A DNA stretch of 64,000 bases from a bacterium SCSIO 12741. Its GTDB lineage: Bacteria; Bacteroidota; Bacteroidia; Flavobacteriales_G; Salibacteraceae. Below the pieces are notes generated by a model. The model made no database searches and was not told where the DNA came from. It saw nothing but the letters and a program-made list of their open reading frames with translations. Numbering within the stretch: the stretch's first letter is position 1; each line of letters opens with the position of its first letter. Position numbers and translations under genes: made by a program. The DNA lies in the NCBI GenBank assembly GCA_024398055.1, contig CP073749.1:2356594-2420593 (forward strand). The letters run 5' to 3'. Positions 2,855-45,334 of this stretch are shown piece after piece.

Positions 2855-3805
2855 TTATCTTTTTTCCTTCAATTCAGAAATAAGGCGTGCAAAATAACCG
2901 CTTTTTTCCGGGAATTTCAAACTTAATTTCTCATAAACTTCTATGGCCTTGTCGAAATGCCCCTGTTTCGCATGAATTTTGGCCAGTGTTTCGGTGACCA
3001 TATCATCGTCTTCACGAAGGCTTTCACGAGCCATTTTGTCCAGGGAGAAGAATTCGGCTTTGGGCCTGTTGATGGGCACCATCGTAGGTTTTTCGTCTTT
3101 TACGGGAGCTGGAATTTCAACCGGACCTTTCTCGATAAATGTCGAAATCAAACTATCGGGTGAAGAAACTTTTTGAGTTTCCTTTTTTTCTACCCTTTTA
3201 AGCCAGGATAATAGGCCAGGATCACCCGGTTCTTCAACTGGAGCACTTGGCTGAACTTCCTCTTTTTCTTCTTGAACAACATTTTCAACGGGCTCCTGTG
3301 CGCTCAGTTCATCGCTGACCTCACGTTCGATACTCGCCGATACCGCATAACTGAGCAATTGTTTTTCAAGAAGTTCTCTTTCCCGAGCTTCTGCCTCAGT
3401 ATCCTGAACAGGTTCTTCTATGGTCTCAATAGCTTCGGGAGTAATTTCTGGTTCGGTTTCCGGAGGAGTTTCGAGCTTTTCTTCTACCGGTTCAGGTTCT
3501 ACCACTTCAAGTGAAGTAGTAATAACTTCGGGTTCACTGGCCACCTCTTCTTCCACCACGTCCACCAATTCCATGGCAGGCTGATGAATAAAATGATAGA
3601 GTTTTTCCCGATCAGGGGAGAATAGGGCGGCTTTCTTCAGTTGTTGCTCAAAGCGCAAATCCTGCTGAAGTTGAAATTGCTTAGCCTTTAAGGTTTGCAC
3701 CAGAGGGATAAAACCGAAAGATTTTTCCCACTTGTCCAGCTCTGCCTGTGATGCTGTCATCAGTTCAGGCGATTGAGTCCACTGCACAAGTTCAGATACA
3801 TTCAT
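2855..3805 (-). CDS. Tetratricopeptide-type protein of the lptE-secG operon
   Basis: 316 residues with no signal peptide, so probably cytoplasmic. Three parts are visible: an N-terminal Gln/Lys-rich helical region (about 1-75), a long acidic Glu/Pro/Val-rich linker (about 80-200), and a C-terminal segment with one recognisable TPR-like helix pair, ETLAKIHAKQGHFDKAIEVY followed by EKLSLKFPEKSGYFA (about 275-310). A gene of this design between lptE and secG is familiar in Bacteroidota, but its function is unknown to me. It ends 4 bases before secG and begins directly after the lptE stop, so it is surely cotranscribed. A role in envelope assembly is only a guess from context. Confidence 0.85.
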   Translation of the reverse strand: MNVSELVQWTQSPELMTASQAELDKWEKSFGFIPLVQTLKAKQFQLQQDLRFEQQLKKAALFSPDREKLYHFIHQPAMELVDVVEEEVASEPEVITTSLEVVEPEPVEEKLETPPETEPEITPEAIETIEEPVQDTEAEARERELLEKQLLSYAVSASIEREVSDELSAQEPVENVVQEEKEEVQPSAPVEEPGDPGLLSWLKRVEKKETQKVSSPDSLISTFIEKGPVEIPAPVKDEKPTMVPINRPKAEFFSLDKMARESLREDDDMVTETLAKIHAKQGHFDKAIEVYEKLSLKFPEKSGYFARLISELKEKR

Positions 3806-4324
3806 TTACCAGTCTCCTACCGAAGCGTTAAAGATTTCTTGAACCAGCAACTCATTAATTTCTTCAATCAATGTAGCCTCTACTTCGTTCAATTGCCGGG
3901 TACTGTTGTAATCGGCATATTGGGTAAAGCGCTTTTCGAAGTTGCGGGTTTCATCCGTTCGGTTCACGAATTTAACAAATACCGTAATCGTTAAACGGTT
4001 TTGTGCAGCAACTTCGTCGGCCTGGATTCCCACAGGGGCGGTACGGTATTGCTCGATTTTTCCGGAAAACTGGAGGTCGCCATTGTTCTTTACCAGGTCC
4101 AATCGCGTTTGAGTCAGGAAGATATCCCTAAGGGCTTCAGTAAAATCCTGAGAAAGAGTAGGCTGAGCCAGTGGTGCATAATTGGGGAAAACTTCAACCG
4201 AAATAGTTTTGACCTTATCATAGTCCAACACGGCACCATTAAAGGTAAACTGAACTCCTTTGCAGGATATCAATGAAGAACTGACCAATACGGCCATAAA
4301 AAGATTTCTTAACGTGGCTTTCAT
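3806..4324 (-). CDS. lptE: LptE-family LPS assembly lipoprotein
   Basis: 172-residue lipoprotein with signal peptide and lipobox (SSSLISC, Cys about residue 21), placing it at the outer membrane. The body matches the Bacteroidota LptE (LPS-assembly) family: VQFTFNGAVLDYDKVKTISV followed by NYAPLAQPTLSQDFTEALRD and an FLTQTRLDLV segment. LptE plugs the LptD barrel that inserts lipopolysaccharide into the outer leaflet. Its start codon overlaps the stop of the sigma-54 activator gene by four bases (ATGA), so translation is probably coupled. The family call is strong; the symbol follows family naming, as no LptD is present to confirm partnership. Confidence 0.9.
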   Translation of the reverse strand: MKATLRNLFMAVLVSSSLISCKGVQFTFNGAVLDYDKVKTISVEVFPNYAPLAQPTLSQDFTEALRDIFLTQTRLDLVKNNGDLQFSGKIEQYRTAPVGIQADEVAAQNRLTITVFVKFVNRTDETRNFEKRFTQYADYNSTRQLNEVEATLIEEINELLVQEIFNASVGDW

Positions 4325-5574
4325 TTTAAATGGTACTCATTGATTTTACGGTACAATGTTCTTTCACTAATTCCCAACTCTCGGGCCGCATGTTTTCGCT
4401 TGCCGTTGTATTTTTCCAAGGCCTTTTTTATCAATTCCTTTTCCTTTTCTTCAATAGACAGAGACTCTTCTACCTCCTCATGCTCATGAAAGGATGGGCG
4501 ATTCGGATGAATGATTCGAGGCTCGTTTTCGTTGTAATCAGAAACAATGCCAGGATTTTGATCGATAGGTACAGGATGCACTGTATCGGATTGAACCTCC
4601 CCATAAAAGCGGTTGATGATATCCACATTTTCACCACTATTAGGGTTGATCGTTTGATTTTTGATTCCCTCCAAAACCAATTTTTTCAAATCGGTCACAT
4701 CTTTTTTCATGTCGAAGAGCACCTTGTAAAGAAGTTCACGTTCTGAGAATTCCTGCTCTTCCTTTTTATAGAGTGTAGGAAGTTTTCGCTCCGCAAAATC
4801 AGGTAGGTAGGTGATCAGCGTTTCAGCGCCAATTTCACGTACCTGTTCAATTATCGAAATCTGTTCGGTCACATTCTTTAGCTGACGAATATTTCCTTTC
4901 CAGGAGTAGTTTTCCAGGACTCTTACTGCTTGTTCATTCAATCGAACTGGAGGCATGCGGTACTTTTCTGCAAAATCAGCGGCAAATTTTCGAAACAAAA
5001 GATGAACATCCTCTTTCCGATCCCGAAGAGGTGGGAGTTTAATGGGTACCGTACTTAAACGATAGAACAAATCCTCTCTGAATTTCCCTTTTTCGATCGC
5101 TTCGGGAATATTCACATTCGTTGCTGCTGCGATGCGTACATCGGTTTTTTGAACCTTGGAAGAACCCACCTTAATGAATTCACCCGATTCCAAAACGCGT
5201 AGCAAGCGAACTTGAGTTTGAAGTGGTAGTTCCGCAACTTCGTCCAGAAAGATTGTGCCGCCATTGGCTACTTCAAAGTATCCCTGGCGTGTATTGTGAG
5301 CTCCGGTAAAAGAGCCTTTTTCGTGTCCAAATAATTCAGAATCGATCGTTCCTTCCGGAATGGCACCGCAGTTTACAGCAATGTATTTGTTGTGCTTCCT
5401 TTGGCTAAGTTGGTGAATGATTTTTGGGAAATTCTCCTTACCCGTACCACTCTCTCCTGTGATCAGAACAGACAAATCCGTGGGAGCTACGCGCATTGCG
5501 GTTGCAATAGCATGATCCAAGGCAGGAGAACTACCAATTATCTTAAAGCGTTGTTTTACTTGTTGTATGGTCAT
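4321..5574 (-). CDS. Sigma-54-dependent transcriptional activator without receiver domain
   Basis: 417-residue enhancer-binding protein. It begins directly with the AAA+ ATPase: Walker A GESGTGKE (40-47), the sigma-54 contact loop as GSFTGA (87-92) instead of canonical GAFTGA, Walker B GGTIFLDEVAEL (105-116), and FREDLFYRL (about 165-173). A roughly 100-residue linker follows, then a C-terminal Fis-type helix-turn-helix (about 385-417, ELGISERTLYRKINEY). There is no N-terminal receiver, PAS or GAF domain, so any signal must act through partner proteins, the linker or expression level. It sits between miaB (3-base gap) and lptE (4-base overlap), which suggests control of envelope genes, but no target site is proven here. 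Confidence 0.93.
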   Translation of the reverse strand: MTIQQVKQRFKIIGSSPALDHAIATAMRVAPTDLSVLITGESGTGKENFPKIIHQLSQRKHNKYIAVNCGAIPEGTIDSELFGHEKGSFTGAHNTRQGYFEVANGGTIFLDEVAELPLQTQVRLLRVLESGEFIKVGSSKVQKTDVRIAAATNVNIPEAIEKGKFREDLFYRLSTVPIKLPPLRDRKEDVHLLFRKFAADFAEKYRMPPVRLNEQAVRVLENYSWKGNIRQLKNVTEQISIIEQVREIGAETLITYLPDFAERKLPTLYKKEEQEFSERELLYKVLFDMKKDVTDLKKLVLEGIKNQTINPNSGENVDIINRFYGEVQSDTVHPVPIDQNPGIVSDYNENEPRIIHPNRPSFHEHEEVEESLSIEEKEKELIKKALEKYNGKRKHAARELGISERTLYRKINEYHLK

Positions 5575-5577
5575 GAT

Positions 5578-6996
5578 TTATACCACTGTTCCTTTTAGGG
5601 TAGCAGATGAGCATTCGGTGATTTTAACTTGAACATATTCTCCCGGGCGCATATCGGTGTAAGGGAAAATAACCATGGTGTTTTCAGAAATTCTTCCACA
5701 CCATTCGTCTTTGTTTCTTTTGGATGGGCCTTCTACCAAAACTTCTTTTACCTCGCCAATAAAACGCTGGTTTCCTTTCAACCCGTGTTCGTTTTGAAGC
5801 GAAATGATTTCCGTAAGGCGCTTTGATTTTACATCATCGGGAACATCGTCGGTGAACTTTCGTTCAGCCAGAGTTTTGGGACGCTCCGAATACTTGTACA
5901 TGTAGGCAAAATCAAATTCTACCGCTTCCATTAGAGAAAGTGTCTCTTGATGTTGCTCCTCAGTTTCGGTGCAGAAACCACTGATAATATCTGTTGAAAT
6001 GGAACATCCAGGAATTATACGTCGAATAGCGTCGATACGCTCCAGGTACCATTCACGGGTATATCCACGGTTCATTTTCTTGAGTAACTCACTACTTCCA
6101 GCTTGAACAGGTAGGTGGATATAGTTGCAAATATTAGGGTAGTCAGCGATGGCGTGTAAAACGTCATCGGTCATATCTTTAGGGTGAGAGGTGGAGAACC
6201 GCACCCGAAGTTCCGGACTAACCTCGGCCACCTTGATGAGCAATTGAGCAAAACTAACAGTCGGCTTTTCAGGGTCTTTGATTTCTCCTTTCTTGGTAAT
6301 ATTCCATCGATAAGAATCCACATTCTGCCCCAGAAGAGTGACCTCCCGAAAGCCCATTTCGAATAGTTCGCGGGCCTCTTCTACAATGGTATGCGGGTCA
6401 CGACTTCTTTCTCTACCGCGGGTAAATGGCACTACGCAGAAGGAACACATGTTGTCGCATCCTCTCATAATAGAGATAAAGGAGGAAACTCCATTGTCGC
6501 CCAACTTTACAGGAGAAATCTCAGCATAGGTTTCCTCTCGTGAGAGTAAAACATTTACCGCCTTTTGTCCGCTTTCCACTTCTTGAATCAAGTCAGGAAG
6601 GGCTCGGTAAGAATCCGGACCAGCAACAATGTCCACCAGTTTTTCTTCATCGAGTAGTTGAGACTTAAGGCGCTCAGCCATACATCCCAAAATACCCACC
6701 ATCATTCCAGGATTCTTTTTTCTCTTAATCCCTTTGAAGTGAGTCAAACGATTGCGCACGGTTGTTTCAGCCTTTTCACGAATGGAGCAGGTGTTGATCA
6801 AAACCAAGTCTGCCTCATCAGCATCACGGGTAGTCGCAAAACCTTCCTTTTCCAAAATGGAAGCTACGATTTCACTGTCCGAAAAATTCATCGCACAGCC
6901 ATAACTTTCCAGGTAGAGTTTTTTACCATTTCCAGATTGAGAAGATTCCTTCACAATAGCTTCTCCCTGCACTTTTTCGTCCATCATTTCTTCCAT
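5578..6996 (-). CDS. miaB: tRNA-2-methylthio-N6-dimethylallyladenosine synthase MiaB
   Basis: Radical-SAM methylthiotransferase that modifies i6A37 to ms2i6A37 in tRNAs reading UNN codons. From the chosen start the protein has 472 residues. The N-terminal cluster uses Cys34, Cys70 and Cys105; the radical-SAM motif [19 protein letters not shown] holds Cys180, Cys184 and Cys187; a C-terminal TRAM domain follows. The open frame extends upstream to 7074, but that part ([12 protein letters not shown]...) is not family-like and overlaps an excellent promoter at 7037-7066, so the ATG at 6996 is preferred. It heads the operon that runs to secG. Confidence 0.96.
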
Positions 6997-42445: not shown

Positions 42446-42703
42446 GACATTTATTTTGTCTTACAAAGTAAAGTTATCCGCTACCCAAAAGGGGGAGTGG
42501 AGGTCTCTTTTTACTAACAGAAAATGCACAGACCAGTTCCCCGAAGTGGTGACGTGGAATTTTATTTTGCAGGGAAAACCCCTAATTCATAGAACAAAGA
42601 GTCGGTGTAATATTGGCATCGGAAAAAGGGCAGAGAAATGGATTACCACAGGAATTGTATATTAGTAGAAGAGCGTTGCAGCAAAACCCAAATGTATTTT
42701 TCT
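42446..42703. other. 258-base intergenic region between thyA and the lipoprotein gene
   Basis: Divergent promoter region. The minus side has TTACTTTG (42464-42471) for thyA. The plus side has TTATTTTG-like and TATATTAG-like sequences before the lipoprotein, none with a TTG at 19 bases. I see no tRNA, hairpin terminator or coding potential. Confidence 0.5.
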
Positions 42704-43123
42704 ATGTCGAAGGTCCTTTATATCCTGGGATTGACTCTATTGGTATGGTCATTTTCAGGCTGTCAGTCGAACAAGGATGCCGTGAAGTCAGAAAATTCGT
42801 CTTCCATTTCATCCGATAACCTTTCTTCAACCGTTAAACTTGTCTTAAGCGCCCTGGAAAAAAGCGGAGGAAAACTTACCCCAGCTTTACAGGAGAAATA
42901 TTCCACCCTCGAGCGAGATGGCCAGCAATACCTACGTGGTACGGCCAAAGTTACCCAGCCAGATGTGGCATCAAAAAGCATTTCAGCTACCGGAACCCTT
43001 ATAGAAAGTAAAACAGGAGAAATCTGGACCTTGCTTATCCCTGTAGATCGTCTCAAAGACTTGACCGAGGTGAGCGAGTTGTCCTATTTAGACTTGGATA
43101 CCCAAAGTGAAATAACAAAGTAG
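42704..43123 (+). CDS. Small lipoprotein resembling a subtilase propeptide/inhibitor
   Basis: 139 residues from ATG 42704, which gives a signal peptide and lipobox (WSFSGC, Cys20). The frame goes back to 42638, but that portion has no sense as a protein start. After a Ser-rich linker (about 25-40), residues about 45-136 form one domain. Its last part, GEIWTLLIPVDRLKDLTEVS with ELSYLDLDTQSE, lines up with GEIVTVRVPVKNLDGLKRIA and IRYIEVDMPVE in the propeptide region of the protease encoded three bases downstream. That spacing implies cotranscription. It may be a membrane-anchored inhibitor or folding helper for that protease. This is inferred from my own alignment, not from a family match. Confidence 0.75.
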   Translation: MSKVLYILGLTLLVWSFSGCQSNKDAVKSENSSSISSDNLSSTVKLVLSALEKSGGKLTPALQEKYSTLERDGQQYLRGTAKVTQPDVASKSISATGTLIESKTGEIWTLLIPVDRLKDLTEVSELSYLDLDTQSEITK

Positions 43124-43126
43124 GTT

Positions 43127-45334
43127 ATGAAAAAACATCTATTAGCATTAGCCCTGTTGGTGGGATCTGTACCCTCAATCGCCCAGCAGAATTCGACAAG
43201 CCCGGTTTCGGGTGGATTGCTGCTCAATGAGCCGCATGAATCTTCAAAACTGCCAAACGGTTTTTGGCAAAATCACATCCCTCATTCCATTCAAGCAGTG
43301 GATGGCGAAGAATGGATTGGAGTGACTTTATTGACCGATGAGAACTTTAATCCCAATGACATTAATGCCCTGCAAGGACAGGTAGGATCTGAGTTGGGCG
43401 AAATTGTAACTGTTCGTGTGCCCGTGAAGAACCTGGATGGTTTAAAGCGTATAGCTGGAATTCGTTACATTGAAGTGGACATGCCCGTGGAGGCTAAGTT
43501 AGACAAAGCCCTGCCAGCCTGTAATGTCCCACAAGTACATGATGGAACCGGACTCTCCGCCAAATACTCGGGGAAAGGAGTGGTGGTAGGAGTTATTGAC
43601 TACGGTTTTGATTTTACACATCCAACCTTTTTAGATACCTCTGGAAATAGCCTGAGAGTTAAAAGAGCCTGGATCATGGGTGACCAAACCGGTACACCTC
43701 CAGCTGGACAAATTGCCGGTTCAGAAATTACCGATCCTGATACCCTATGGGATTATGGTGGAACAACCGACGGGTCTCACGGTACTCATGTGGCTGGAAT
43801 CGCTGGTGGATCCGGTTACCCTGATGGAGATTACACCGGAGTAGCCTATGAGTCTGATTTGGTTTTGGTGGAATTGGATAACAGTGGTAGCTCAGAAATC
43901 ATCAATGGTATTAAGTACATTTTCGATTATGCCGCCGCTCAAGGAAAGCCGGCCGTAGTAAATATGAGCTTAGGTTCTCATTTAGGACCCCACGACGGAA
44001 CCTCGTTACTTGATCAAGCCATTGACAACATGGTGGGACCTGGTAAAATTGTAGTTGGTGCTTCCGGTAATGAAGGGTCAACCCAGTTGCACATCGGACA
44101 TTCTTTTGGATCCGGAGATACGGTGAATACCTGGCCAGCTTTGAATGAAGGAACAGTCGGGGCGACTGTTATAGATATTTGGGGTGAAAAAAATGAAAGC
44201 TTTTCCATTGCCATCGGTGTTATCGATACTTCAGGAAGTATTTTGGGAAGTACCGGGTGGATTACGGTTACCGATACTACCTACGACGGATTGATGGACG
44301 ACCAAGGAGATACCGCTGCCTTTGAAGTGGCCATGGTTAGAAAAAATGGAATCAACGATAAGCCGAGCGCCCGTATTGAAATGTACAGCAATTCCAGTGA
44401 GTACTTCCTCGTGATGGGAATTACCGGGCCCAATGGAAAAAAAGTGGACCTATGGAACCACGGTACTGGACTGGGTGCTGGTTTTTATGACTTTGTTCCT
44501 TTTACGCCAGCTCCTTTCAATTTAACTGCCGGAGATACGCTATCTACTATGGGAGAAATTGGAGGAACAGCTAAGGATATTATTACCGTTGGCGCTTATA
44601 CCTCCAAAACCCATTATACCAACATATTTGGTCAATCGGATACGGTTGGTGAAGGGGAAGGAGAGCTGGCTCTGTTTTCAAGCCTTGGGCCAACAGCTGA
44701 TGGTCGGGTTAAGCCAGATATTACTGCTCCGGGACACTTGGTTGTTTCAGCGGTTAATTCCTACGATCAAGAATACCTTCGAGGTGGACCCTACGAGGGG
44801 CACTTAGTAGACAGTGTGACCGATGGAACGGATACCTGGTATTATGGGCAAATGTCAGGAACATCTATGGCTACTCCAATGACCACAGGTATCATTGCTC
44901 TTTGGCTTCAAGCTGATGAAAATCTCGATCCAAATGGAATCAAAGATCTGTTGAATGGCCACTCCATTAAAGATCAACACACAGGTAGTATTCCTTCAGG
45001 AGGAAATAACTTCTGGGGAAGAGGGAAAATTGATGCTTTGGCTGTAATGACAGAGCTGGAAAGCTACTTTGGAATTAGCGAAGCAGAAGAAAGTGAAGGC
45101 TGGACGGTATATCCTAATCCAACTCAAGGTGAGGTGACTATTAAGTTGGATCAAGGAGAGGTCTCCAACATTCAGCTAACGGATTTGAGCGGTCGAATCC
45201 TACATCAGGAAAATCAATTGTCAGGAAGTCAGTTGACCCTGGATTTGAGCGACTGGAATCAAGGCTTGTATTTATTGAGTCTTTCCGATGCTCAAGGAAA
45301 AAACTATGCTGCCCGTTTGATCGTGGGTCAGTAA
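43127..45334 (+). CDS. T9SS-secreted subtilisin-family (S8) serine peptidase
   Basis: 735 residues. Signal peptide about 1-19; propeptide-like region about 60-125; catalytic triad Asp158 (VVVGVIDYGFDFTHP), His221 (DGSHGTHVAGIAGGSG) and Ser580 (GQMSGTSMATPMTTG), with the oxyanion Asn in GASGNEGS near 314. About 260 residues between His and the Ser block include an insert between about 340 and 480 with a beta-sandwich look. The end (about 655-735) is a T9SS type A sorting domain: WTVYPNPTQGEVTIKLDQ, LTDLSGRILHQEN and GLYLLSLSDAQGKNYAARLI. It acts outside the cell. The small lipoprotein gene three bases upstream is its likely partner. Confidence 0.95.
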   Translation: MKKHLLALALLVGSVPSIAQQNSTSPVSGGLLLNEPHESSKLPNGFWQNHIPHSIQAVDGEEWIGVTLLTDENFNPNDINALQGQVGSELGEIVTVRVPVKNLDGLKRIAGIRYIEVDMPVEAKLDKALPACNVPQVHDGTGLSAKYSGKGVVVGVIDYGFDFTHPTFLDTSGNSLRVKRAWIMGDQTGTPPAGQIAGSEITDPDTLWDYGGTTDGSHGTHVAGIAGGSGYPDGDYTGVAYESDLVLVELDNSGSSEIINGIKYIFDYAAAQGKPAVVNMSLGSHLGPHDGTSLLDQAIDNMVGPGKIVVGASGNEGSTQLHIGHSFGSGDTVNTWPALNEGTVGATVIDIWGEKNESFSIAIGVIDTSGSILGSTGWITVTDTTYDGLMDDQGDTAAFEVAMVRKNGINDKPSARIEMYSNSSEYFLVMGITGPNGKKVDLWNHGTGLGAGFYDFVPFTPAPFNLTAGDTLSTMGEIGGTAKDIITVGAYTSKTHYTNIFGQSDTVGEGEGELALFSSLGPTADGRVKPDITAPGHLVVSAVNSYDQEYLRGGPYEGHLVDSVTDGTDTWYYGQMSGTSMATPMTTGIIALWLQADENLDPNGIKDLLNGHSIKDQHTGSIPSGGNNFWGRGKIDALAVMTELESYFGISEAEESEGWTVYPNPTQGEVTIKLDQGEVSNIQLTDLSGRILHQENQLSGSQLTLDLSDWNQGLYLLSLSDAQGKNYAARLIVGQ

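Follow-up and report, generated by a model that had tools for sequence, protein, structure and literature searches.

Each of the KLIKK proteases of Tannerella forsythia is preceded by a small lipoprotein ORF, and these lipoproteins have no significant similarity to one another (PMC4404884). The KLIKK enzymes are C-terminal-domain, T9SS-type proteases, three of the six being serine proteases (PMC4404884, PMC7296668), and the potempins (PotA–E) are reported to inhibit the co-expressed KLIKK protease (PMC7296668). In the literature found, protection of the periplasm and surface of cells that export T9SS proteases has been worked out mainly for these potempins. Stand-alone propeptide inhibitors of subtilases (MEROPS I9) include POIA1, the yeast proteinase B inhibitor, and Arabidopsis SPI-1; also described are TgMIC5 and Plasmodium SUB1-ProM, the gene for which adjoins subtilase genes (PMC6993865). 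The protein ORF2 inhibits the Aeromonas sobria protease ASP with an IC50 of about 84 nM, and ASP, which has no propeptide, needs ORF2 for maturation (PMC5638518).

The window analyzed here, a whole stretch of 64,000 nt from bacterium SCSIO 12741 (Salibacteraceae; GCA_024398055.1, CP073749.1:2,356,594-2,420,593, forward strand), contains a gene pair in which, as with the potempins, a small lipoprotein gene lies directly upstream of the gene for a T9SS-secreted protease. In contrast to the potempins, the lipoproteins considered here constitute one homologous family originating from the subtilase propeptide. They are set apart from the potempins by description; among the fold matches listed for the window lipoprotein, potempin structures are absent, and the two groups may still be related. 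The original prediction called the arrangement little described, which holds for the propeptide-derived version but not for the arrangement as such, known already from the T. forsythia potempins (PMC4404884, PMC7296668). No description of a propeptide-derived lipoprotein paired with T9SS subtilases was found in the open-licence literature, which is weak evidence of novelty. With the I9 inhibitors the window lipoprotein shares a propeptide fold (predicted here), sequence kinship with S8 propeptides, and a separate gene, whereas the examples in PMC6993865 are eukaryotic and the present family comes from bacteria, is mostly lipid-anchored, and has a T9SS substrate as its partner. As in the ASP/ORF2 system, an adjoining gene encodes a separate partner protein for an S8 protease, and this partner ends in Lys, which in ORF2 lies at the active site; however, the protease here keeps its propeptide and the partner is usually a lipoprotein. 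The propeptides of Tk-subtilisin, ProN-Tk-SP, CspB, and BPN' have the same predicted fold and C-terminal register as the lipoprotein, but are synthesized as part of the protease chain and then cut off.

The gene pair in the window

The features of the pair, with the evidence for each, are as follows.

42704..43123, + strand: stand-alone propeptide-like lipoprotein gene, 139 aa (ORF, BLASTP, ortholog in genome G008 with the same flanks)
42704..42763, + strand: lipoprotein signal peptide II and lipobox FSG|C20 (sequence)
42827..43120, + strand: lipoprotein region modeled as propeptide fold (AlphaFold pLDDT 88.7 and 81.3, fold matches)
43091..43120, + strand: lipoprotein C-terminal tail DLDTQSEITK (structural alignment to 1spb_P, tail count)
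43127..45334, + strand: T9SS subtilase, 735 aa (PF00082 E 3e-40, PF18962 E 5e-14, catalytic residues)
43187..43498, + strand: the subtilase's own N-terminal propeptide (alignments)
43499..45046, + strand: S8 catalytic domain with D158, H218, N315, and S580 (domain search, alignment)
45107..45325, + strand: T9SS type A C-terminal sorting domain of the subtilase (PF18962, TIGR04183)

The two genes lie at 42704-43123 and 43127-45334 with a spacing of three bases, as originally described. The lipoprotein is a separate product: it has a signal peptide and a stop codon of its own and is conserved as an ORF distinct from the protease. Its lipobox Cys is invariant in an alignment of five lipoproteins. 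An alternative in-frame ATG at 42638 would give a lipoprotein of 161 aa, but we prefer the start at 42704, since the product then begins with a lipoprotein signal peptide like that of the G008 ortholog. In the protease the catalytic D158, H218, and S580 are all present, as is the oxyanion residue N315, and the gene for SprA of the T9SS translocon is found in the SCSIO 12741 genome. Three nucleotides (GTT) separate the TAG stop of the lipoprotein from the ATG of the protease at 43127. A scan for promoters and terminators returned sites no more numerous than in shuffled sequences and none between the two genes; from the 3-nt gap we infer that the genes are co-transcribed. The interval 43121-43126 (TAG GTT) leaves both genes in one reading frame, which looks incidental since the orthologous pair in G008 is out of frame.

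Homology and predicted fold of the lipoprotein

The original prediction that the lipoprotein lines up with the protease just ahead of its catalytic domain is borne out by three comparisons. Residues 72-136 of the lipoprotein align with residues 59-122 of the protease with 18 of 65 identical (28%) at E 5e-6 (BLASTP, single comparison). Smith-Waterman alignment of the mature lipoprotein with the prodomain scores 78 (z 11.5), a value reached by none of 5000 shuffles, and the proposed profile alignment, in which two orthologous lipoproteins are compared with nine subtilase prodomains, gives a probability of 97% and E 7e-11 over 76 columns. The resemblance of the lipoprotein to the propeptide thus reflects homology rather than chance. 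All 15 matches of a lipoprotein-only profile in the PDB are to the propeptide region of Tk-subtilisin, the best at E 0.005. In Pfam and NCBIfam the window lipoprotein and ten relatives have no match above the cut-off; the window protease's own propeptide likewise lacks a Pfam match, indicating that the Pfam models are too insensitive here. The lipoprotein of genome G515 weakly matches CspB_prodomain in Pfam (E 0.08).

An AlphaFold model of the lipoprotein reaches pLDDT 88.7. Because the alignment used for this model included prodomains, modeling was repeated with lipoproteins only (16 rows), giving pLDDT 81.3 with structural elements and best matches unchanged. The best VIA-align matches of both models are the propeptides of ProN-Tk-SP (Z 8.8-9.0), CspB (Z 7.8-8.1), and Tk-subtilisin (Z 7.1-7.2), and residues 7-77 of the BPN' prosegment align to the lipoprotein model as far as its second-last residue. 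Although Z-scores of 7-9 are moderate in themselves, they gain weight because the top rows all belong to one family and agree with the sequence evidence. Absence of fold similarity, named in the original prediction as a refuting result, was not observed: the best matches of both models are all subtilase propeptides, and the lipoprotein is accordingly predicted to have the subtilase-propeptide fold. ORF2 (3wqb_B) is among the Foldseek matches of the lipoprotein model.

C-terminal tail and protease cut sites

The last residue of the subtilisin BPN' propeptide, Tyr77, occupies the S1 site. In the structural alignment to 1spb_P, 1spb being the 77-residue BPN' prosegment, D130 of the lipoprotein corresponds to the helix-capping residue E69, T138 to the P1 residue Tyr77, and K139, the last residue, lies one position further; the window tail thus carries Thr at P1, with Lys as the following residue. 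In the BPN' propeptide, E69 and D71 cap two helices (PMC6993865). The commonest stand-alone tail extends 8 residues past the helix-capping Glu/Asp, i.e., exactly to P1 (∼16 of 39 sampled), while about half of the 39 overrun P1, mostly by 1-5 residues, and a few end short. Lys or Arg stands at the P1 position of the tail in 15 of 18 Bacteroidia-type lipoproteins, a count in which kinship is likewise left uncorrected. By its position in the alignments the lipoprotein tail would reach the S1 site.

Counting 8 residues from E116 by the spacing of pro-BPN', the autoprocessing site of the window protease is predicted to be K124|L125. At autoprocessing sites that are themselves predicted, Lys or Arg occurs in 12 of 16 paired but only 13 of 57 unpaired proteases (Fisher p 2e-4, a statistic that ignores kinship and was examined once the pairs were known). 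Tail length and basic residues suggest a product-like occupancy of the active site.

Occurrence of the pair in Bacteroidota

An initial scan of the genome collection with the window lipoprotein as single query returned no relatives. The survey of other Bacteroidota that had been proposed nevertheless found the pair repeatedly, beside 17 of 80 subtilase relatives from named genomes and as 17 intact pairs in 16 genomes of a phylum sample. The named-genome count comprises propeptide-like ORFs of 140-160 aa directly upstream of the subtilase at a gap of -4 to 46 nt and includes G008 (JAGQYO010000034.1, Flavobacteriales MAG HKST-UBA67), which belongs to the same family as the window organism but a different genus. 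In G008 the two genes are 22 nt apart and have the same neighbors as in the window, dfrA-thyA at one end and a nucleoside transporter at the other; in the remaining family members with examined loci the subtilase is present and a stand-alone copy is absent. Barnesiella, Bacteroides luti DSM 26991, Paludibacteraceae, and Prevotellaceae are among the other named-genome pairs. A lipobox is recognizable by eye in 14 of the 17 ORFs; in the other three it is lacking (L246), doubtful (L218), or masked (L220). The stand-alone ORFs L246:3540-4004 and L218:3341-3823 immediately precede a subtilase yet show no clear lipobox, and lipid anchoring is therefore not universal.

The phylum sample comprised 395 genomes, whose small frames were searched with a core profile of lipoproteins and prodomains. 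The profile matches 24 small frames, 23 excluding that of the window, of which 22 were inspected (G576 was left out). Intact frames directly beside a subtilase number 17 (12 upstream, 5 downstream), in 16 genomes that lie outside class Bacteroidia, usually at a gap of 2-50 nt. The rest are two adjacent but flawed frames (G424, G643), two frames away from a subtilase, and one prodomain-like piece. G424 was set aside because its signal peptide is not clear, G643 because its lipoprotein frame is broken, and C99 of G634 because it is a prodomain-like piece without lipobox. The break in G643 (L186, about 3543-3919, reverse strand, beside a subtilase) is due to a frameshift or an assembly error; the related genomes G515 and G752 carry intact copies. 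On the reverse strand of L192 (G514) a single propeptide-like lipoprotein comes after two subtilases in tandem. In G444 there are two separate pairs, L177 and L189, whose gene orders are opposite. Neighboring genes vary among lineages, so the linkage of the pair has been kept despite changed surroundings.

All ten partner proteases tested carry both an S8 domain and a T9SS tail, although one of the tails scores just below the cut-off. The partners also retain their own propeptide, recognized by profile, and most paired propeptides score well. The propeptide of the G008 protease is unusually diverged and is the exception; relaxation or loss of the cis-propeptide was not generally observed among paired proteases. 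The named relative closest to the window protease (45% identity) is L193 (JACQGG010000155.1), from a MAG labeled Acidobacteria, in which no stand-alone copy was detected beside the protease; horizontal transfer or mis-binning may account for its label.

In a 94-row tree (120 columns) the stand-alones group together and not with the prodomain of their partner, with 8 label changes compared to 30 in shuffles, and several lineages branch in parallel among stand-alones and among prodomains. An AU test on the 120-column alignment (p 0.053) neither establishes that the stand-alones arose once nor rejects it. The lipoprotein is probably a duplicated subtilase propeptide that became a separate lipid-anchored protein.

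Possible roles of the lipoprotein

The original interpretation is supported: the recurrent pairing with T9SS subtilases, the propeptide that the protease retains, and a C-terminus placed like that of a reaction product all fit a stand-alone inhibitor. The lipoprotein is probably a co-encoded, lipid-anchored trans-propeptide that inhibits its own protease in the manner of a bound product and shields the envelope. It would be produced together with the protease, tethered to a membrane by its N-terminal lipid through some 20 residues of flexible linker, and would bind the catalytic domain as a cleaved propeptide does, its beta-sheet packing against surface helices of the protease and its C-terminal tail, with Lys as last residue, lying in the S subsites like a reaction product. 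Such a reusable inhibitor could protect the cell's envelope, before or after T9SS export, against protease that becomes active too early or that returns; binding, inhibition, and site of action are what we infer here. Since the protease keeps a cis-propeptide for folding, a reusable inhibitor is the most likely role, and the retained propeptides of the partners fit an added inhibitor better than a replacement foldase. Counting against this reading are the sampled tails that overrun P1 or fall short of it, the Thr at P1 in the window tail, and the copies that lie apart from a subtilase.

The opposite emphasis, in which the lipoprotein acts in trans as a folding helper in the periplasm, as ORF2 does for ASP, and inhibition is a mere by-product, appears unlikely. 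ORF2 is found among the fold matches, is encoded next to its protease, and has its C-terminal Lys at the catalytic center (PMC5638518), and the diverged propeptide in G008 points in the same direction; but ASP lacks a propeptide while the partners here retain one recognized by profile, and a folding helper would need no lipid anchor. Lipid anchoring, common among the stand-alones, would suit a receptor or anchor that holds the protease at the surface through the propeptide-binding face, or an inhibitor of other subtilases, foreign or own, and orphan copies adjoin PorP/SprF and T9SS cargo genes instead of a subtilase. Against these roles, which seem quite improbable, most copies adjoin a subtilase at -4 to 50 nt, and tails that stop at P1 point to an occupied active site rather than to simple docking. 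The shared frame of the window genes, with TAG GTT between them, might also indicate that a protease gene has been split or has decayed, or that a sequencing artefact is involved. This explanation can practically be dismissed, and a split or frameshifted gene was rejected: the two genes encode separate signal peptides, the protease propeptide is complete, the G008 genes are out of frame and 22 nt apart, and separately signaled pairs recur across the phylum.

Since the pair recurs in distant Bacteroidota, it is probably a widespread, unnamed means by which these bacteria restrain their own proteases. A more speculative extension, and a rather doubtful one, is that lipid-anchored trans-propeptides throughout the phylum form a second checkpoint for T9SS subtilases, in which folding by the cis-propeptide would be followed by capture by its membrane-bound twin and release only on or after export, so that one fold would be used twice in each maturation route. 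One inhibitor family with a clear propeptide origin and a predictable action would make self-protection testable across Bacteroidota, including the culturable Bacteroides luti and Barnesiella, assign a function to lipoproteins outside all Pfam and NCBIfam families, and provide many natural inhibitor-protease pairs for specificity studies.

Copies apart from a subtilase

Stand-alone copies with no adjoining subtilase occur in G100, G136, G167, G057, G606, and G634, and not every member can thus be a cis-encoded guard. The orphan lipoproteins L092:1891-2361 (G136), L093:4707-5177 (G100), and L094:4861-5331 (G167) have no subtilase beside them and directly follow a PorP/SprF-like gene and a large protein whose tail is gliding/T9SS type B-like; their own tails end in Lys at the P1 position. 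The orphan in L111 (G057, 900-1364, - strand) comes right after a gene whose secreted product may carry a T9SS-type tail, and the orphan's own tail ends about 4 residues before P1 and so may no longer reach an active site. In L112 (G634) a 232-aa ORF (4944-5642, - strand) with no subtilase nearby encodes a propeptide-like lipoprotein with a long Pro/Glu-rich C-terminal extension.
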